64,000 bases of DNA from Parazoarcus communis (GTDB lineage Bacteria > Pseudomonadota > Gammaproteobacteria > Burkholderiales > Rhodocyclaceae), in assembly GCF_003111665.1 (NCBI RefSeq), contig NZ_CP022188.1, positions 4,712,001-4,776,000 on the forward strand, given 5' to 3'. Numbering within the stretch: the stretch's first letter is position 1; every line of letters starts with the position of its first letter. Position numbers and translations under genes: made by a program. The notes beneath the pieces are model-generated. The model was not told the origin of the DNA. It saw only the letters and a program-made list of their open reading frames with translations, and did not search any database. Shown piece by piece: positions 1 through 9,451 of the stretch.

Positions 1-1
1 C

Positions 2-1411
2 GATAACGCCAACAACAGCACCAATGGCATGGCGATGGCCAAGGACTACGGCAATGCGGCCGCGGTCAATGGCGCGACAGCCTCTTCGGCGATGACCGAC
101 TCGTTCAATACGACGAAGGCAATCGCGATGACCAGGCTCGACGGCATGGTCACCAAGATCCAGGTTCATGGCTTGGGCAACCACGCAATGAACATGGGTA
201 GCGTCAATGGCGGCGACGGCGGCAAGGCATACGGCGGCGACGGTGGCAGCGCGACCGGCGGCAATGCCAAGGGTGCCAACGGTGCCGATGGCGGCAAGGC
301 CTACGGTGGCAATGGCGGTGATGGCGCCTCTGGCGGCAGTGCAACGGCGGGCAACGCCGACACCGGCTACGTGAAAGGCGGCAGCGGTGGCAACGGCGGC
401 CTGGCGAAGAACGCCACGGGCGGCGACGGCGGCGAAGCCTCGGCAACGACCGGCAACGCACGCGCAAACGACTCCGCGACGGGTGGCAACGCCATGGGCA
501 AGGTCGGTGGCGCGATGGCATCCGGTGGCAAGGCCTACTCGACCGACAGCGCCTCTTCGGGCAGCGCATCGGGTAGCGGCGGCAACGGCATGGCATCCGA
601 CAAGGGCTATGCAGGCGGCGCAATGGCCAGCAGCAAGGCCGGCGGCAGCGGCGCCGATTCGGGCTCTGCTGATGCAGGAAGCTCCTGGGCCAAGGCTGCC
701 GATGGCACTGCGCGGACACGTGGCGAGGGCAACGACCCGGCTGACGTAGCCAACCGTGCCACCTCGACCAGCGGTGCTGGCGGCACGACCGGCGCAGCGA
801 CCTCGACCGGCGGTACGTCCGGCGCGTCGACCGCGAGCGGCGGTACCACCACGCAAACCGCAACGGCCACGGCTGGTGCAGGTACGGCGACCGGTGGCGC
901 AGCCACGTCCGGCGGCGCAACGGCCACGGCTGGCGCAGCAACCGCGACGGCCGGCACCAACACCTCGACCGGCGGTGCTGCAAGCTCGAGCGCCACGGCG
1001 ACCTCGGGTAACAGTTCGGCCAACGGTGGCGCAGGCGGAATGGCCTCCAACACCGGCGGTGCTGGCGGTGACGGCGGTGCAGCCACCAGTGGCAGCGCGA
1101 ATGGCGGTGCAGCAACCGGTGGTGCTGGCGGTGCTGGCGGCTCCGGCCAGGGCGGTAGCGGTGGTGCTGGCGGTGCTGGCGGCACGGTGACCGCAGGTGC
1201 GGCAACCGGTGGTGCTGGCCAGGGCGGTAACGGCGGCGCTGGCGGTGCTGGCGGTGCTGTGACGGTGGATGCGGGACACTTCAACATGTCCAACGCCATC
1301 AGCGGCAGCTTCACCAATGGTGCTGGCATCATCCTCAATTCCCAGAACACCGGGATTGGTTCGCTGGTGCAGCAGAGTGCCAACGTCCAGGCCAACCTGA
1401 CCCTCAGGTAA
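2..1411 (+). CDS. Glycine-rich secreted fibre-like protein (5' end outside window)
   Basis: The frame is open to the left window edge, so this is the C-terminal 469 residues or so of a longer protein. It is almost entirely Gly/Ala/Ser/Thr with many GGDGG, GGAGG and GGNGG blocks, and from about 1030 to 1260 the DNA is a degenerate tandem of Gly-Gly-Ala codons. The last 50 residues differ: they are hydrophobic/amide-rich and contain GIILNSQN and LVQQSANVQANL, resembling segments in the two secreted proteins downstream. There are no Cys residues in the visible part. It lies just upstream of a small secreted protein and a C39 peptidase, the neighbourhood of Fap-type functional amyloids, so a fibre or matrix subunit is inferred from composition and context. 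A PE_PGRS-like or cell-wall protein is not excluded by composition alone. Confidence 0.75.
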   Translation, partial: DNANNSTNGMAMAKDYGNAAAVNGATASSAMTDSFNTTKAIAMTRLDGMVTKIQVHGLGNHAMNMGSVNGGDGGKAYGGDGGSATGGNAKGANGADGGKAYGGNGGDGASGGSATAGNADTGYVKGGSGGNGGLAKNATGGDGGEASATTGNARANDSATGGNAMGKVGGAMASGGKAYSTDSASSGSASGSGGNGMASDKGYAGGAMASSKAGGSGADSGSADAGSSWAKAADGTARTRGEGNDPADVANRATSTSGAGGTTGAATSTGGTSGASTASGGTTTQTATATAGAGTATGGAATSGGATATAGAATATAGTNTSTGGAASSSATATSGNSSANGGAGGMASNTGGAGGDGGAATSGSANGGAATGGAGGAGGSGQGGSGGAGGAGGTVTAGAATGGAGQGGNGGAGGAGGAVTVDAGHFNMSNAISGSFTNGAGIILNSQNTGIGSLVQQSANVQANLTLR

Positions 1412-1483: not shown

Positions 1484-1858
1484 ATGAGACCCCATCTGTC
1501 CATGATCGCCCTGGGCATTGCACTGGCTGTGACATGCAGCTCGCCTGCCTCGGTGCACGCGGAGGTATTCGTTCCGACCGTCACCGACGAGGCGCGCAAC
1601 GATTCGATCGATCTTGGAAGCGCCCCCCTTGACGAGAGCGTGCTGGACAACCAGCGGGGCGGCTCGGATCTGCATCTGAGCGAGATTCGCGCCGTTGGCA
1701 ACGTCAGCGAGGTGGAATCGCACAACGTCATCACCGGCCACAACATTGTTTCGGACGGTGCGCTTGCAGGCGCATCCGGCATGCCGATGTTCATTCAGAA
1801 CAGCGGTAACGGCGTGCTGATCCAGAATGCAGTCATCCTCAATGTCGAGGTGAAGTAA
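1484..1858 (+). CDS. Small secreted protein with double-glycine site (Fap-like partner)
   Basis: A 124-residue protein. I chose the ATG at 1484 because TAGGAGG lies 8 bases upstream; an in-frame start at 1430 has no ribosome site. Residues 1-26 are a Sec signal peptide ending in VHA. Residues 49-60 read LDESVLDNQRGG and fit the double-glycine leader pattern (hydrophobic at -12, -7; Gly-Gly at -2, -1), giving a mature part of 64 residues after Gly60. The mature part holds FIQNSGN and LIQNAVILN, similar to segments of the other secreted proteins of this locus. The next gene, 6 bases downstream, is a C39 peptidase. I infer a minor amyloid or nucleator-like component (FapA/FapE role); there is no recognised family name. 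Confidence 0.8.
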   Translation: MRPHLSMIALGIALAVTCSSPASVHAEVFVPTVTDEARNDSIDLGSAPLDESVLDNQRGGSDLHLSEIRAVGNVSEVESHNVITGHNIVSDGALAGASGMPMFIQNSGNGVLIQNAVILNVEVK

Positions 1859-1864
1859 AGGAGC

Positions 1865-2572
1865 ATGACGATGAAACGCATCGTGCTCCGTTCAGGCCTT
1901 TTGATCGTCGTGGCGATAGTGCAATCACTTGCCGCCACGACGGCCTTCTCCGACCAGCTGAGATTTCACGCTCCGATGGGCGGGCAGCTGACGGTGCCCA
2001 CCGTCAGCCTGAAGGAAGCACGTTTTCTGTCGACCCTGCGCCAGCAGTACGACTTCAGTTGCGGCTCGGCGGCGGTCGCCACCCTCCTCACCCACCACTA
2101 CGATCAAACGGTTGGCGAATCCAAAGTGTTCGAGGTCATGTACGAACACGGCAACCAGGAGAAGATCCGGCGTGAGGGGTTTTCGATGCTTGACATGAAG
2201 CGCTACCTCGACCATCTCGGCTATCGCGCCGAGGGCGTGGAAGCGTCGCTCGATCAACTGGCGTCGGCCTCCGTGCCCGCCATCGCACTGATACAGGAGA
2301 ACGGCTACGCACACTTCGTTGTCATCAAGGGCGTGCGCGACGGCAAGGTGCTTCTGGGCGACCCGGCGCTCGGCACGCGCGTGATGAAGCGCCAGGCATT
2401 CGAGAAAATATGGGTCAACAGCATCCTGCTGGTTGCGCGTAACCGTGTCGGCATGGCCCGCTTCAACGACGAATCCGACTGGCGCGTCCTGCCAAACGCG
2501 CCGATTGCACGCGGTCTGGACCGCAATATGGCAGACGTGCAGTTGCTTCGTCGCGGCCCCTGGGATTACTGA
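1865..2572 (+). CDS. C39-family cysteine peptidase, FapD-like
   Basis: A 235-residue exported peptidase. Residues 1-29 form a signal peptide (hydrophobic stretch LLIVVAIVQSLA). The papain-like C39 motif DFSCGSAA places the catalytic Cys at residue 66, the His at 150 (GYAHFVV) and the Asp at 166 (LLGDPALG). It has no ABC-transporter or membrane domain, so it is a free-standing periplasmic C39 enzyme like FapD, not a bacteriocin exporter. AAGGAG precedes ATG 1865; ATG 1871 is an equally placed alternative. It sits between two genes whose products carry Gly-Gly sites, which are its likely substrates (inference from the family's double-glycine specificity). Confidence 0.88.
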   Translation: MTMKRIVLRSGLLIVVAIVQSLAATTAFSDQLRFHAPMGGQLTVPTVSLKEARFLSTLRQQYDFSCGSAAVATLLTHHYDQTVGESKVFEVMYEHGNQEKIRREGFSMLDMKRYLDHLGYRAEGVEASLDQLASASVPAIALIQENGYAHFVVIKGVRDGKVLLGDPALGTRVMKRQAFEKIWVNSILLVARNRVGMARFNDESDWRVLPNAPIARGLDRNMADVQLLRRGPWDY

Positions 2573-2584
2573 GGACACCGCGCC

Positions 2585-3694
2585 ATGAAGAATTCAATGA
2601 ACGGACGCACCTCGGCCCTGATCACGACGGTCGCCACGCTCACTGCCTTGTGCGCAAGCCTTGCACAGGCGCTGGGCGAGGAAGAAGAGCTTTCTTCGGT
2701 AATGGCCGGCGACGGCGTCACCAGCATCATGGACGTGACGAGCGTTGCCACGCGACAGGGCTTTCATCCGGCAAACTGCAGCAGGCACGAAGTTCCGCCC
2801 GCAGAATTGCTGGCGCTGGCCGACTGGCCGCTGGACGATACCCCCACCTGCACCCAGGGCCGCGCCGTTGCGCGCGCTGCGCCTGTCGTGGAGGCGACCA
2901 TCCGCCCCATCCGGGCGATGGCAGAGGTCGTTGAAGCGAGCATCCTCACACCGCGTGAGGTGCTCGACCGCTACGGCGATACACCGGGCACGCTGGCCAC
3001 GACAGCACCCGACACCGGAAAGCTGAGCGCCCGGGGTGAGCTTAACGGCAACGACGGCAACATCGGCGCGGCTGTCACGGCCGCACCGGCAAGCCTTGCA
3101 TCCGCCGCAGCTCCCGCTCCCGCTCGTGCCCAGGCGCCGGCCCCTGTCGCCGTTGCATCGGCCGTAATGGACCAGACCGCCGGCGAGCTGCCGGTCGCGA
3201 TCCCGCCGCTGGCTAAGGCGGACAAGGCCGAACGCGAGATCTACCGGCCCCTGCCCTCGACGCTGATGCTGCGCAGGGCGATACGGCTTGCCGAGGCTCC
3301 CGCCGTAGCCGAATCCGAACTCGACGCGCTGCGGGGCGGCTTCGAGACGCCATCGGGGCTAAGGGTGTCCTTCGGCATCGAGCGCGCGGTGTACGTGAAT
3401 GGCGTGCTGAGCAGTGTGACCAGCGTCAATCTTGCCGATCTGGGCAACATGAACGGCCGCGGGCTGCCCGAAGGCAGCACCCTGGCAGTGATCCAGAACG
3501 GCCCGAACAACGCCTTCATCTCCAGCGGTCTGAACAACAACGCGCTGGCGACGGTGATCCAGAACTCGCTCGACAATCAGAATATCCGCGCCGTGACCAC
3601 GATCAATGCGTCGGTCAATAGCGTGGAGATGCTGCGCAGCGCGCACATGAACACTTCGATGCGGGATGTGATGGTGCAGTCGCTGTTGCGCTGA
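2585..3694 (+). CDS. Secreted protein with Pro/Ala-rich pro-region and double-glycine site (Fap-like partner)
   Basis: A 369-residue protein, 12 bases after the peptidase gene and clearly in the same operon. Residues 1-31 look like a signal peptide. An Ala/Pro-rich low-complexity linker occupies about residues 165-205. Residues 241-252 read VAESELDALRGG, matching the double-glycine leader rule (Glu -8, Leu -7, Leu -4, Gly-Gly), so processing would release the last 117 residues. That C-terminal part contains VIQNGPNNAFI and VIQNSLDNQNI, amide-rich segments reminiscent of curlin/Fap repeats. Function is inferred: an amyloid-associated secreted component. The family is not otherwise recognised. 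Confidence 0.8.
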   Translation: MKNSMNGRTSALITTVATLTALCASLAQALGEEEELSSVMAGDGVTSIMDVTSVATRQGFHPANCSRHEVPPAELLALADWPLDDTPTCTQGRAVARAAPVVEATIRPIRAMAEVVEASILTPREVLDRYGDTPGTLATTAPDTGKLSARGELNGNDGNIGAAVTAAPASLASAAAPAPARAQAPAPVAVASAVMDQTAGELPVAIPPLAKADKAEREIYRPLPSTLMLRRAIRLAEAPAVAESELDALRGGFETPSGLRVSFGIERAVYVNGVLSSVTSVNLADLGNMNGRGLPEGSTLAVIQNGPNNAFISSGLNNNALATVIQNSLDNQNIRAVTTINASVNSVEMLRSAHMNTSMRDVMVQSLLR

Positions 3695-3714: not shown

Positions 3715-3743
3715 TCAAAAAAGGACAGGCAGTGCCTGTCCTT
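3715..3743. terminator. Bidirectional intrinsic terminator
   Basis: The arm AAGGACAGGCA is followed, after one base, by its exact reverse complement. It is preceded by an A run and followed by a T-rich stretch, so it can end transcription from both sides. It lies between the convergent 3' ends of the secreted-protein gene and the FapF-like gene. Confidence 0.85.
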
Positions 3744-3763: not shown

Positions 3764-5062
3764 CTAGAGCGTGATCGGCATGCGCAGCGTGAGCTGCAGA
3801 TCGGGGGTGTCGTTGGTGACCCCGACGCCAAGCGAAAGGTTGACGGTATTGCCCGAGTTCAGGCGGTGAGAGTAGCCCAGCAGCAGGGTGCCGAGCTGCA
3901 CACGGACCGAGCCCGGCGCGGTGCTGCCATTGATCTTGACCTTGCCGACCGACTGATGGTCGTAGCCGATGCTGAAGGACGAACGGTCGTTGAGAGCGAG
4001 CCCCATGCCGAAGTTGAAGCCGATCACCCCGCCCGGCGCGACCTCCCCAATCAGGATGTCGCCGCCGTCGGTGTTTGCCTTCACGTTGCTGCGCTTGAAG
4101 CTGTGCTGATAGCTGATGCCGCCGAAGAACACTGCGGGGTCAGAGGGAATCAGCACCGTCAGCCCCGGTGTGATGGTGTAGAAGCCCGAGCCGGTGGGCA
4201 GCTCGCTTTGCAGGCCGGTGCCGCGCCCGCCCGGCAGCGTGTAGTTGGTCTTGACCTCGAAGGGGTCCTTGCCGGTGCGCGTCTTGAAGCGCAGCGAGGC
4301 GATGTAGTACGGGCTGTCGCCACCGCCATCGTTGAGCTGGTAGCGGCCAGTCAGCTCGACGTCGCCGACGCCGCTGCCATCGGCGTCGAACACGCTGTCG
4401 ACCGCGGTGCCGGACGCGATCTCGCGGCTGATGCTGGTGTCGGAGCGATAGACCCAGGGCACCTTGGCCTCGAGCTCGAAGCGATTGGTGATCCCGCGCC
4501 GGACGGTGAGCGCGGCGGTGAAGGTGTTGCGCTTGACCTCGCGCACGTCGATCAGGCCGATGAGGATGGCAGGAATCACCGTGTAGCCAACCAGCGCGAT
4601 GCGGTTGCTGGACGAGTAGGCATACTGCAGCGAAGGCTCAAGCACCCACTTGCCGGGCGCTGTGAGTACGCCTGGAGTCTCGAAGATCGGCGCGATTTCG
4701 CGCGACCGCGTGTCGCGCGCCGGGTCAGGCGCCTGCCCCACGGGCTGCTGCCCACCGCGCTGGGCCATGGTCACCGGCACGTTGGCATCGGCAGCAGGCA
4801 CGGTGTCCGGCCCACGCCCGCGAACGTCTTCAAAACCGAGCGATCGGCGCAACTCGGACAGCGCGGCTTCCTGGCGGGCAAGATTGGCCTTGAGGGTGTC
4901 GATCTGCGCGTTCTGCTCGGTGATCTGCTGCTTCATCCGCAGCATGTCGGCGCCCCCTGCCTCCGTATCCGCCGCCGCGCCCAGTCCCGGCAGTGCTAAC
5001 AGCATGATGCCTGCGAAGCCCTGCCCCAGGGCCAGTGCAATCCGTGTCGGCTTATTCTTCAT
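3764..5062 (-). CDS. FapF-like outer-membrane beta-barrel with N-terminal coiled coil
   Basis: A 432-residue protein with a signal peptide (residues 1-31), then a heptad-rich coiled coil at about 38-75 (MKQQITEQNAQIDTLKANLA), a linker, and from about residue 120 alternating amphipathic beta strands to the C-terminus (LQLTLRMPITL). This is the architecture of FapF, the trimeric pore that exports amyloid subunits; the same broad family is often annotated only as transporter. The start at 5062 follows GGGAGGAGACC. Unlike the classical fapABCDEF order, this gene is convergent with the other secretion genes. Its assignment as the export pore of this locus is inferred from domain layout and position. 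Confidence 0.78.
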   Translation of the reverse strand: MKNKPTRIALALGQGFAGIMLLALPGLGAAADTEAGGADMLRMKQQITEQNAQIDTLKANLARQEAALSELRRSLGFEDVRGRGPDTVPAADANVPVTMAQRGGQQPVGQAPDPARDTRSREIAPIFETPGVLTAPGKWVLEPSLQYAYSSSNRIALVGYTVIPAILIGLIDVREVKRNTFTAALTVRRGITNRFELEAKVPWVYRSDTSISREIASGTAVDSVFDADGSGVGDVELTGRYQLNDGGGDSPYYIASLRFKTRTGKDPFEVKTNYTLPGGRGTGLQSELPTGSGFYTITPGLTVLIPSDPAVFFGGISYQHSFKRSNVKANTDGGDILIGEVAPGGVIGFNFGMGLALNDRSSFSIGYDHQSVGKVKINGSTAPGSVRVQLGTLLLGYSHRLNSGNTVNLSLGVGVTNDTPDLQLTLRMPITL

Positions 5063-5105: not shown

Positions 5106-6431
<1,326 letters not shown>

Positions 6432-7083: not shown

Positions 7084-7440
7084 AGTGGCTGCGATGAAAA
7101 CTGCACCAAGCCCTCAATGCCGCTTGCAGTTTCCGTGACTGAGCTCGACAACGCCGACACTCACGTCAGGCTTTCTCTCTGCTCGACATACCCCGCAAGG
7201 TGTACCAGCCAACCCCCATCACACCCGCCCCACCGCGCTGAACTGTTCAGCCATGCGCTCGAACTTAAGAAACTTCATGCAATTTCGATGCTTTCTGTTC
7301 ATATTTTTGGATACAAACAACACTTTTATAGCTTTGAATGTTTTATTTACCCCATGCGGGTAACTAAAACGATACATTTTGTTTCCCATGTCATTTTATA
7401 TACATCCATAATCCATGCCGCATACCATCAATCCCCGCAC

Positions 7441-7460
7441 AAACACGTTTAAACGTGTTT
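7441..7460. promoter_or_regulatory. Perfect 20-bp palindrome at autotransporter start
   Basis: AAACACGTTT is followed directly by its reverse complement, ending two bases before ATG 7463. It could be an operator or a 5' mRNA hairpin controlling translation start; which one is not visible from sequence. Confidence 0.5.
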
Positions 7461-7462
7461 TC

Positions 7463-9451
7463 ATGCGTAGAACGCTAATCGCATCAGCAATCAGCATCGC
7501 ATTCACCGCCGGGCCTGCGGCAGCCCAACAATCTGTCACAACTGCATCATTTGATACGCTCGCGGAAGGCACCGGATACTTCGCCGAGGCGATCAGCGCT
7601 GACGGGAATGTCATCGTCGGCACCGTGTCAGAACAGGGATTTCTTTGGACGACCACCGACGGGTTGTCCACCTTCGCGGGGATTCCGGGCAATGCCAGTT
7701 TCACGCCAAAGGACGTGAGCGCCAACGGCAACTACGTTGCCGGCACACTGAGATCAAATGAGACCTATAGGGCAGTACGCTGGAATGCGGAGTCCGGATT
7801 ATTTTATGACATTCCCTTCGTGTCCGGTCAGCTACACTCGTGGGCAAATGCCGTCAGCGCTGACGGCAGCGTAGTGGTCGGTTCGTCAACCAAACTGAAC
7901 TTTAGCGATAAAATTGCATACCGTTGGACCGCTGCGGACGGAACGATCAGCCTCGGCACACTGAGCGGATACGACTACTCCGAGGCAAACGATGTAAGTG
8001 CAAACGGTAGCGTCGTCGTCGGGTCAGCGTGGGAGTCAGGCAGCAGCAACATAAGGCAGGCCTTCCGCTGGACCTCAGCAACCGGCATGGAAAGCCTGGG
8101 CAATAGCACCCGCTCCATCGCCTTGGCGGTCAGCGATGACGGATCGGTTATCGTCGGCCTCGCAGGGGAGATGCTCTCGTCGATCGCGTTCCGCTGGACA
8201 CAGGCATCCGGGATGACCTTGCTTGGCACCCTTGCTGGCGGCACTGACTCGGAAGCCTATGACATCAGTGGCGACGGCAAGGTGATCGTCGGTTGGTCCT
8301 TGAGCGGCTCAGATGACCGCGGATTCCGCTGGACTGAAGTCACCGGCATGCAGAGTGTCGAAGACTGGCTTCGCAGTCACGGCGCCGTCATTGCCGAAGA
8401 CATGACGGAATCCGCGGACGCGACCAACGCTGACGGTTCAGTTGTGGTGGGCGTGCTGAGCAATGGTCGGACTTACATTGCAAGAGTCTCGTCGGCCGGT
8501 ACGGGCCTCATCACGCGAGAAGATGTTGCGCAGAGCCTGGGCAGCGTTGCGGCCGGTAGCAGCATGGCGATGAACTCAATCAGCACCGTCATCAACGGCG
8601 CCAACAGCCGTCCCTTGGCGCGCCGGGTAGCAAATGGCCAGAAGGCGTTCTGGGTCGCAGGGGACTGGGGGCGTGACGATCACGGCAACCGCAGCGGCGA
8701 CTTGGGACTGACCGAAATTGGTGGAGGCATGAATTTCGGTGTTGCCCAACTGAACATGGCCGTTGGCCACACTTGGTCCGCGCAAGAACTGGACCTGAAT
8801 GGCAAGGCGAACGTGGAGGGCTCGTACCTCAGCGTGTTCGGCTTGATTCCGCTCGGCGCCAACGACGACGGTGGTTTGTGGGCAACCATTGGTGCTTATG
8901 GTCACTGGGGGAACGCAGACCTGCGCCGAGGTTACGTTGTTAACGGTACGAGCCTTGAGTCGTCCAAGGGTAGCCCCGACGTAACAACCTGGGCCGTCCG
9001 CGCCCGTCTTGACTGGGAAAATGCCTTCTCCGCAGGCAATGCGCGGTTTTCGCCTTATGCAGATCTCAGCTATGGCGAAGCACACCTTGATGGCTACACC
9101 GAGACCGGCGGTGGCTTCCCCGCACGTTTCGACAGCCGCACCGAGCGCAATACTGAACTGCGTATTGGCGTAAACGCCGCAGTGCCGGTCGCCTCCGGTG
9201 CAGTAAAGCTGCTCGGCCAGCTCGAAGCTGCGCACCGCATGGAGAAAAACGGCTCCCGCACCTCTGGTGAGCTGATCGGACTTTTCAGTTTCGATGAGTC
9301 CGGACAGGACTTCGATCAAGACTGGATCCGTGCCGGTGTCGGTATCGAAGGCAAGCTTGGCGCAGGCAAGGCCTCGTTGATGCTGAACGGGACGACCAAG
9401 GGCGAAGCCCTGAGCACCTGGCTCGCCGCATCCTATCAGGTTGCCTTCTAA
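7463..9451 (+). CDS. HAF-repeat autotransporter (type V secretion)
   Basis: A 662-residue surface protein from ATG 7463; an in-frame ATG at 7415 would add 16 residues before the signal sequence. Residues 1-23 are a signal peptide ending AAA. The passenger (about 25-350) is made of repeats of the type AxSADGSVVVG...AFRWT, the HAF/extracellular repeat family expected to form a beta-propeller-like fold. A short alpha-helical linker is followed by a C-terminal autotransporter barrel (about 400-662) ending in YQVAF with terminal Phe, the signal for BAM insertion. No clear Shine-Dalgarno precedes either start. Passenger function is unknown. A palindrome of the RAYT-linked family begins 31 bases after the stop and may act as terminator. 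Confidence 0.88.
   Translation: MRRTLIASAISIAFTAGPAAAQQSVTTASFDTLAEGTGYFAEAISADGNVIVGTVSEQGFLWTTTDGLSTFAGIPGNASFTPKDVSANGNYVAGTLRSNETYRAVRWNAESGLFYDIPFVSGQLHSWANAVSADGSVVVGSSTKLNFSDKIAYRWTAADGTISLGTLSGYDYSEANDVSANGSVVVGSAWESGSSNIRQAFRWTSATGMESLGNSTRSIALAVSDDGSVIVGLAGEMLSSIAFRWTQASGMTLLGTLAGGTDSEAYDISGDGKVIVGWSLSGSDDRGFRWTEVTGMQSVEDWLRSHGAVIAEDMTESADATNADGSVVVGVLSNGRTYIARVSSAGTGLITREDVAQSLGSVAAGSSMAMNSISTVINGANSRPLARRVANGQKAFWVAGDWGRDDHGNRSGDLGLTEIGGGMNFGVAQLNMAVGHTWSAQELDLNGKANVEGSYLSVFGLIPLGANDDGGLWATIGAYGHWGNADLRRGYVVNGTSLESSKGSPDVTTWAVRARLDWENAFSAGNARFSPYADLSYGEAHLDGYTETGGGFPARFDSRTERNTELRIGVNAAVPVASGAVKLLGQLEAAHRMEKNGSRTSGELIGLFSFDESGQDFDQDWIRAGVGIEGKLGAGKASLMLNGTTKGEALSTWLAASYQVAF

Follow-up and report, generated by a model that had tools for sequence, protein, structure and literature searches.

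The DNA analysed here is a stretch of 64,000 nucleotides (the window) from the genome of Parazoarcus communis, a single contig of 4.89 Mb, and the subject of this report is a cluster of genes at its left-hand end in which an exported, stand-alone C39 peptidase lies between two secreted proteins, U and E, that are its predicted substrates. The cluster begins with the gene for a further secreted protein, P1, and is followed by the gene of a FapF-like outer-membrane channel; it is a Fap-like export operon that is distinct from fapABCDEF. A leader-like motif ending in Gly-Gly is present in both U and E. These motifs, which an earlier reading of the sequence (the original prediction) took for double-glycine cleavage sites, are real, are strongly conserved and, as candidate processing sites in a sister system of Fap, have an evident partner enzyme; cleavage at them is predicted. 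The features on which the argument depends are the following (lengths in amino acids, aa; QN-rich, rich in glutamine and asparagine).

1484..1858, + strand: U, 124 aa, Sec-type signal sequence (read by eye); predicted substrate 1
1628..1663, + strand: predicted cleavage motif of U, LDESVLDNQRGG, residues 49-60; predicted cut after G60
1664..1855, + strand: predicted mature U, 64 aa, QN-rich; length after Gly-Gly 62-69 aa in 81 relatives
1865..2572, + strand: exported stand-alone C39 peptidase, FapD-like, 235 aa; Cys66, His150, Asp166; matched in Pfam and, below cut-off, in NCBIfam
2585..3694, + strand: E, 369 aa, Sec-type signal (read by eye), FapE-like around the site; predicted substrate 2
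3305..3340, + strand: predicted cleavage motif of E, VAESELDALRGG, residues 241-252; predicted cut after G252
3341..3691, + strand: predicted mature E, 117 aa; beta-rich with a C-terminal helix in the predicted model

Candidate sites and their peptidase

The residues originally assigned to the two motifs were confirmed, as were the lengths of the parts C-terminal to the Gly-Gly (64 aa in U, 117 aa in E), and Gly-Gly occurs only once per protein, inside the motif both times. Numbered backwards from the predicted cut, so that the second Gly is -1, the register reads L(-12)..L(-7)..Q(-4) R G G in U and V(-12)..E(-8) L(-7)..L(-4) R G G in E. The consensus of double-glycine leaders consists of a hydrophobic residue at -12, Leu at -7, a hydrophobic residue at -4 and Gly-Gly, and the earlier claim that the two sites have the spacing of such leaders holds for the register of -12, -7 and Gly-Gly. 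The motifs exceed what chance would give: when each protein was shuffled 100,000 times after removal of its first 25 residues, the pattern [VLIMA]x4[LM]x3RGG, referred to below as the strict motif, appeared 85 times for U and 551 times for E. U matched no family of Pfam or NCBIfam, and a fold search with E gave 0 matches at an E-value of 0.001 or less.

The peptidase matches the Pfam model Peptidase_C39 (PF03412) with 86 bits, against a gathering cut-off of 22, and is the only Pfam C39 match in the host genome at an E-value of 0.001 or less. The solved structures closest to it by sequence are double-glycine peptidase domains, those of PCAT1, ComA and 6mpz (the last with a leader peptide), and a Foldseek search with its predicted model also placed the PCAT1, ComA and 6mpz domains at the top, with E-values from 5e-7 to 2e-5, other papain-like proteases ranking below the double-glycine peptidase domains. 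All 87 peptidases checked carry the catalytic Cys, His and Asp motifs, which are invariant in an alignment of 47 of them (A3). Peptidases of the RGG type and of the FapD type (87 and 14 sequences) differ at S68/A, T171/N, W206/L and other residues, and no tie was found in this comparison between the group-specific residues and the residue that precedes the cut. No relative of the peptidase was found on viral contigs.

Conservation among relatives and linkage to the peptidase

Related loci were collected by a scan with an alignment of eight peptidases, from which the best 80 of 577 confirmed relatives were taken, so the sample leans to close relatives. Together with the loci of seven further relatives and the window's own region, and after the exclusion of certain rows, these make up 88 loci; 27 genera appear in the titles of the 80, most of them betaproteobacterial and some from the Lysobacteraceae. 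The rows left out are L019, which is the same locus as L026; L012 and L025, which represent one C39 relative of 39% identity that has other neighbours and no cluster-type RGG site listed; and L013-L016, whose matches lie inside open reading frames (ORFs) of 706-1030 aa. Loci L136-L155 and L157-L164 were assessed apart from the 88. The profiles for U and E were seeded only with the parts that follow the RGG and were iterated at an E-value of 1e-4 or less, RGG was sought within the 50 residues before each profile match, and segments of U proteins that the later-round E profile also matched were set aside for E.

The profile search found U in 86 of the 88 loci and E in 87. Conservation of the Gly-Gly among orthologues, on which the original prediction was staked, was observed, with RGG in 87/87 E and 81/86 U. 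Position -7 is Leu in 81/81 U sites and Leu or Met in 87/87 E sites, position -12 is hydrophobic or Ala in 79/81 and 87/87, and the strict motif is present in 79/86 U and 87/87 E. The core first proposed for the sites, LDxxRGG, stood as regards the RGG and the Leu, but its Asp, at -6, is frequent rather than fixed (30/81 U, 61/87 E), and the conserved core consists instead of a hydrophobic residue or Ala at -12, Leu or Met at -7, Arg at -3 and Gly-Gly. At position -4, 75 of the 87 E have M, L, I or V, whereas U varies there and has Gln in the window. Thinning at 75% peptidase identity left 55 representatives, with RGG in 51/55 U and 55/55 E. In Cupriavidus metallidurans CH34, the motifs read VASSKLDDVRGG in U, VAQARLEESRGG in E and VDSESLARKRGG in the channel. 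The sole locus without U and E, L024, sits in the FapD clade of the peptidases, and in its genome (G044) a FapE with RGKY lies beside the peptidase.

Among other ORFs of the 88 loci the strict motif occurs in 9/842, and among FapF-like ORFs in 12/80. It was found in 0/63 P1 proteins, which were identified by a rough pattern search, the counts for P1 covering the 63 (motif) and 74 (promoter) loci where that search found the protein. In the linker that precedes the barrel of the FapF-like proteins, the motif is present with RGG in 18/84 and with RGA in 8 more (26/84); the RGG loci are L042, with LGTEALAAQRGG as an example, L021, L039, L040, L051, L055, L067, L074, L079, L084, L085, L087, L089, L092, L093, L097, L103 and L105.

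The mean pairwise identity is 0.14 (U) and 0.13 (E) over the 20 residues before the motif, and 0.21 (U) and 0.34 (E) over the 20 residues after it. The constant length of U after the RGG (62-69 aa) indicates that the site occupies the same place across relatives, and in an alignment of 42 full-length E three of the seven invariant columns are R250, G251 and G252. From the stop codon of the peptidase to the RGG of E the distance ranges from 36 to 685 codons (median 75), and the part of E after the RGG measures 97-239 aa (median 122). The earlier remark that a double-glycine site in the middle of a long protein is unusual is correct as to the position, but it does not point to a peculiarity of the site: the stretch of variable length that precedes it makes the mid-protein position a matter of a variable-length extension, and the predicted N-terminal propeptide of E is free to grow in length.

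Among eight loci from plasmid records, L159 has RGG in U, with E not found, L163 has no C39 ORF in the scan, and L164 has no readable site. As a separate observation, L162 (2501-6597, from an Acinetobacter sp. plasmid) carries upstream of a stand-alone C39 peptidase three small signal-peptide proteins, annotated as hypothetical, each of which contains LSRQEMKDTQGA, a double-glycine-like motif that ends in Gly-Ala.

The linkage of E to the peptidase was evaluated in a class-wide sample of 369 genomes, with a threshold of E-value 1e-10 or less for a FapD-type C39 match. Such a match is present in 49 genomes and E in 13, the window's included; all 13 are among the 49, the distance between E and the peptidase is 0.5-1.4 kb in 13/13, and the hypergeometric probability of the co-occurrence is 8.6e-13. 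The joint conservation of RGG and peptidase that had been named as a check is seen in the same genomes, where 13/13 E sites read RGG, a count that leans to success because the E profile (A4) contained the motif columns; the co-occurrence of E and peptidase is not biased by these columns. Stretches from 20 of the 49 genomes comprise 15 true fap loci and 5 of the RGG type, and contig 11 of G072 holds one of each, a true fap locus (FapE RGRY) and an RGG locus, separated by about 90 kb (positions of about 248-249 kb and 338 kb).

Operon context and comparison with known systems

The remaining features of the locus are these.

1..1411, + strand: 3' part of P1, a glycine/alanine-rich secreted protein of 556 aa at full length, whose start lies upstream of the window
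3721..3743, no strand: inverted repeat, terminator-like, between convergent genes (read from the sequence by eye)
3764..5062, - strand: FapF-like outer-membrane channel, 432 aa; 159 bits with the FapF model NF058560, under its cut-off of 700
5106..6431, - strand: sigma-54 activator with an N-terminal VpsR domain, 441 aa; likely regulator of the operon

By their coordinates, P1, U, the peptidase gene and E are separated by gaps of 72, 6 and 12 bases, which makes a single operon likely, and the N-termini of all four products are Sec-like as judged by eye. The C-terminal segment of P1 is related to U, and an RGG site was not found in the window's P1. A FapF-like gene is present in 84 of the 88 related loci. 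A third site, considered in the window's FapF-like protein, was dropped, as its RGG (at MAQRGGQQ) stands without Leu at -7. In the host genome a sigma-54-type promoter lies 76 bp ahead of P1, beyond the edge of the window (L002, about 11665), and the pattern TGGCA[CT]N5[TC]TGC occurs within 300 bp upstream of P1 in 27/74 loci, where about 0.008 are expected per locus; the promoter and the adjoining activator together suggest sigma-54 control of the operon. Its VpsR domain suggests that the activator senses cyclic di-GMP (c-di-GMP), and the fap genes of P. fluorescens are described as being under the c-di-GMP-sensing enhancer-binding protein BrfA (PMC13101488). Adjoining the cluster, at 7415-9451, is a 678-aa autotransporter with HAF repeats.

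The system has in common with Fap of Pseudomonas an exported stand-alone C39 peptidase, a FapE-like protein downstream of it, a FapF-like channel and a regulator of the sigma-54 type. It differs from Fap in that P1 and U occupy the place of FapA, FapB and FapC, the FapF-like gene is convergent, the site is RGG rather than the RG[RK] of FapE, and U is an extra predicted substrate. The window's peptidase matches the FapD model with 144 bits (cut-off 330), the FapF score of the channel being likewise below its cut-off, and the window's E had no match to the FapE model. A survey of 2013 already reports that the FapD and FapF models match many proteins outside fap operons, which it regards as members of larger families (PMC3792158). 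In a tree of 48 peptidases, the FapD and RGG types form separate clades, the FapD clade with support of 97/95 and the RGG type together with alpha- and gammaproteobacterial relatives with 98/79, just below the tool's double threshold; the window's peptidase stands outside the FapD clade. An hhalign comparison of U with the C-terminal repeat of FapC gave an E-value of 0.0025 over just 14 columns, and a Fap-repeat reading of U is only suggestive.

When E was aligned with FapE by hhalign, RGG fell on RGR (E-value 4.1e-5, probability 70%, 27 columns; with a smaller FapE set, 6.8e-4 and 27%). The FapE of true fap loci carry RG[RK][FY] after the signal peptide, with the last Gly replaced, in 16/16 cases, and a phylum sample gave RG[RK][FY] in 19/21 FapE matches, the two others reading HGKF and TGKY; three genomes are in both samples. 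All seven FapE above the equivalog cut-off, which are presumably those of Pseudomonas, carry RG[RK][FY], and in 4/7 of these Pseudomonas-type proteins the element ends at residue 40-41. The alignment thereby offers a candidate site for FapD that is exact to the residue. Separately, the FapE match of L202 (G727) has an internal TAG stop in addition to its divergent site, TGKY, and perhaps belongs to a decaying fap locus. Rouse et al. (2017) report that the active Cys38 of FapD is needed for the secretion of FapC, which the C38A mutation abolishes, with the target described as unclear, that tryptic mass spectrometry of FapE yielded no peptides from roughly its first 70 residues, and that processing may extend to the linker of FapF (PMC5557850). 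An element that ends at residue 40-41 is compatible with these missing residues, though the fit is not tight. In December 2025 a review still describes FapE and FapF as proteins that the protease is 'thought to process' (PMC12822426).

With the peptidase-containing ABC transporters that act on double-glycine leaders (PCAT1, ComA and LahT), the system shares the peptidase fold, the catalytic residues and the leader spacing of -12, -7 and Gly-Gly; it differs from them in that no ABC transporter part is present, the peptidase and its substrates have Sec-type signals (by eye) in place of an N-terminal cytosolic leader, the site can lie as far as hundreds of residues into the protein, and Arg at -3 is invariant in the counted RGG sites. 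There is also a likeness to the Fil genes of Acinetobacter, since the FilB model matches the peptidase with 124 bits and the FilC model the channel with 61, scores that are far under the cut-offs of 475 and 630. The nearest published system is the nap island of Neisseria, published in 2025, which contains the GG-containing NapABC, the C39 peptidase NapP and the FapF homologue NapF, and for which periplasmic cleavage is proposed by its authors (PMC11798529). By that published description the Naps are cationic, 16-36 aa long when mature and linked to autolysis, whereas the products of the window are QN-rich proteins of 64 and 117 aa that belong to a Fap-like operon with a glycine-rich partner. 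No earlier account of the RGG system or of the FapE site was recognised in the open-access literature, subscription papers, supplements and preprints lying outside the search.

Proposed processing and alternative explanations

Given the sites, their conservation, the genetic linkage, and the predicted fold and catalytic residues of the peptidase, the prediction that the C39 peptidase matures U and E is supported. The predicted model of E also speaks for it: a helix spans residues 243-250 and strands run from 260, with the site where this short helix ends, between a long stretch of mostly low confidence and the beta-rich C-terminal part. The explanation proposed as a whole, to which we attach a probability of about 0.86, is that P1, U, the peptidase and E would be exported by Sec, and that the stand-alone peptidase would recognise a short helix in U and E, with a hydrophobic residue at -12, Leu at -7 and Arg at -3, and would cut after the Gly-Gly in the periplasm. 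The cut would free the conserved C-terminal parts, 64 and 117 aa long, of N-terminal propeptides whose length varies, and the mature parts would leave together with P1 through the FapF-like channel and may act as minor subunits, nucleators or channel-opening factors.

Several points weigh against this explanation, among them the leanings already noted, of the sample to close relatives and of the 13/13 count to success. Arg at -3 is outside the classical leader consensus. Five of the 86 U are exceptions (RGA, RAG, RAG, GRAG and RGR), and in the more distant RGG-type loci L151-L155 E carries RGG in 5/5 but U in 0/5, the U sites reading RGT, RGR, QRA and GRAG, with one unreadable; two alphaproteobacterial loci also have E with RGG and a U that reads AGK (L158) or AGR (L160), and a third has no readable site. 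The site of E is therefore robust, while that of U holds in the nearer group. In G302 a second, weak and partial E match (37 columns, E-value 5.4e-4) lies away from the peptidase. The predicted model of E has a low overall score in the predicted local distance difference test (pLDDT 57.6), and only the domain boundary is taken from it; most of residues 31-240 score below 60, residues 51-80 forming a patch at 57-69. Finally, a structural role of the conserved RGG is conceivable in principle.

If it were structural, the RGG would do no more than open a domain, as a tight turn ahead of its first strand that is kept for folding and not for processing, and its place immediately before the predicted beta-rich part of E agrees with this. 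The same element, however, stands before differing sequence in U, in E and in the channel linker (18/84 loci), the conserved positions -12 and -7 are on the side that would be removed, and the register fits double-glycine leaders, which makes a purely structural role very improbable. It is unlikely, though not negligibly so, that E alone is a true substrate and that the site of U is a fading relic of the ancestry it shares with E. The presence of RGG in every counted E, the drift of the U site in distant relatives and the C-terminal segment that U and E share (hhalign E-value 5.7e-9) speak for a restriction to E; against it, RGG is kept in 81/86 U with Leu at -7 in 81/81, in most of the 27 genera, the named exceptions being Schlegelella L039 and Rugamonas L070 and L071. 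The leader-like part moreover survives in distant U, for example as VSDAELGKVAGK and VADSELNHSRGR, which suggests a relaxed P1 (here the residue before the cut, not the protein) rather than loss.

The RGG might also be a docking or secretion signal, bound by the C39 protein as a chaperone or read by the channel, with no cut made. In the FapE of true Fap systems RG[RK] replaces RGG, and we know of no classical C39 enzyme that cuts there; the U of some relatives, too, tolerate R, K, T or A at -1. Some C39-like domains are described as binding without cutting (PMC5557850, PMC6173800). A signal of this kind is nevertheless improbable, since none of the 87 peptidases has lost the catalytic Cys, His and Asp motifs, the upstream sequence and its length are not conserved, and in Fap the C38A mutation of FapD abolishes secretion while roughly the first 70 residues of FapE go unseen by mass spectrometry (PMC5557850).

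The preferred explanation, cleavage of U and E by the C39 peptidase, bears in turn on Fap itself. Arg or Lys at -1 is seen in the U of operons of the RGG clade (RGR in L153, AGK in L158, AGR in L160), which favours the view that Arg or Lys is tolerated before the cut. With about even odds, all periplasmic C39 peptidases of the FapD family would use one element, hydrophobic(-12)..Leu/Met(-7)..R-G-x(-1), in the FapE-like partner, which is RGG here and RGR or RGK followed by Tyr or Phe in true FapE. The FapD site would then lie about 20 residues after the FapE signal peptide, and, since the element is present in the channel too (26/84), one protease would both mature minor subunits and detach or unlock the periplasmic domain of the channel, the removal of the propeptide serving as the switch for amyloid secretion. 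The predicted cut in FapE follows Arg or Lys, which is also the position of trypsin cleavage, and tryptic mass spectrometry could therefore not tell the two cuts apart. Alignment of FapE with the sister system, which carries a near-perfect double-glycine motif in two neighbours of its peptidase, makes the question of the FapD target testable to the exact residue.

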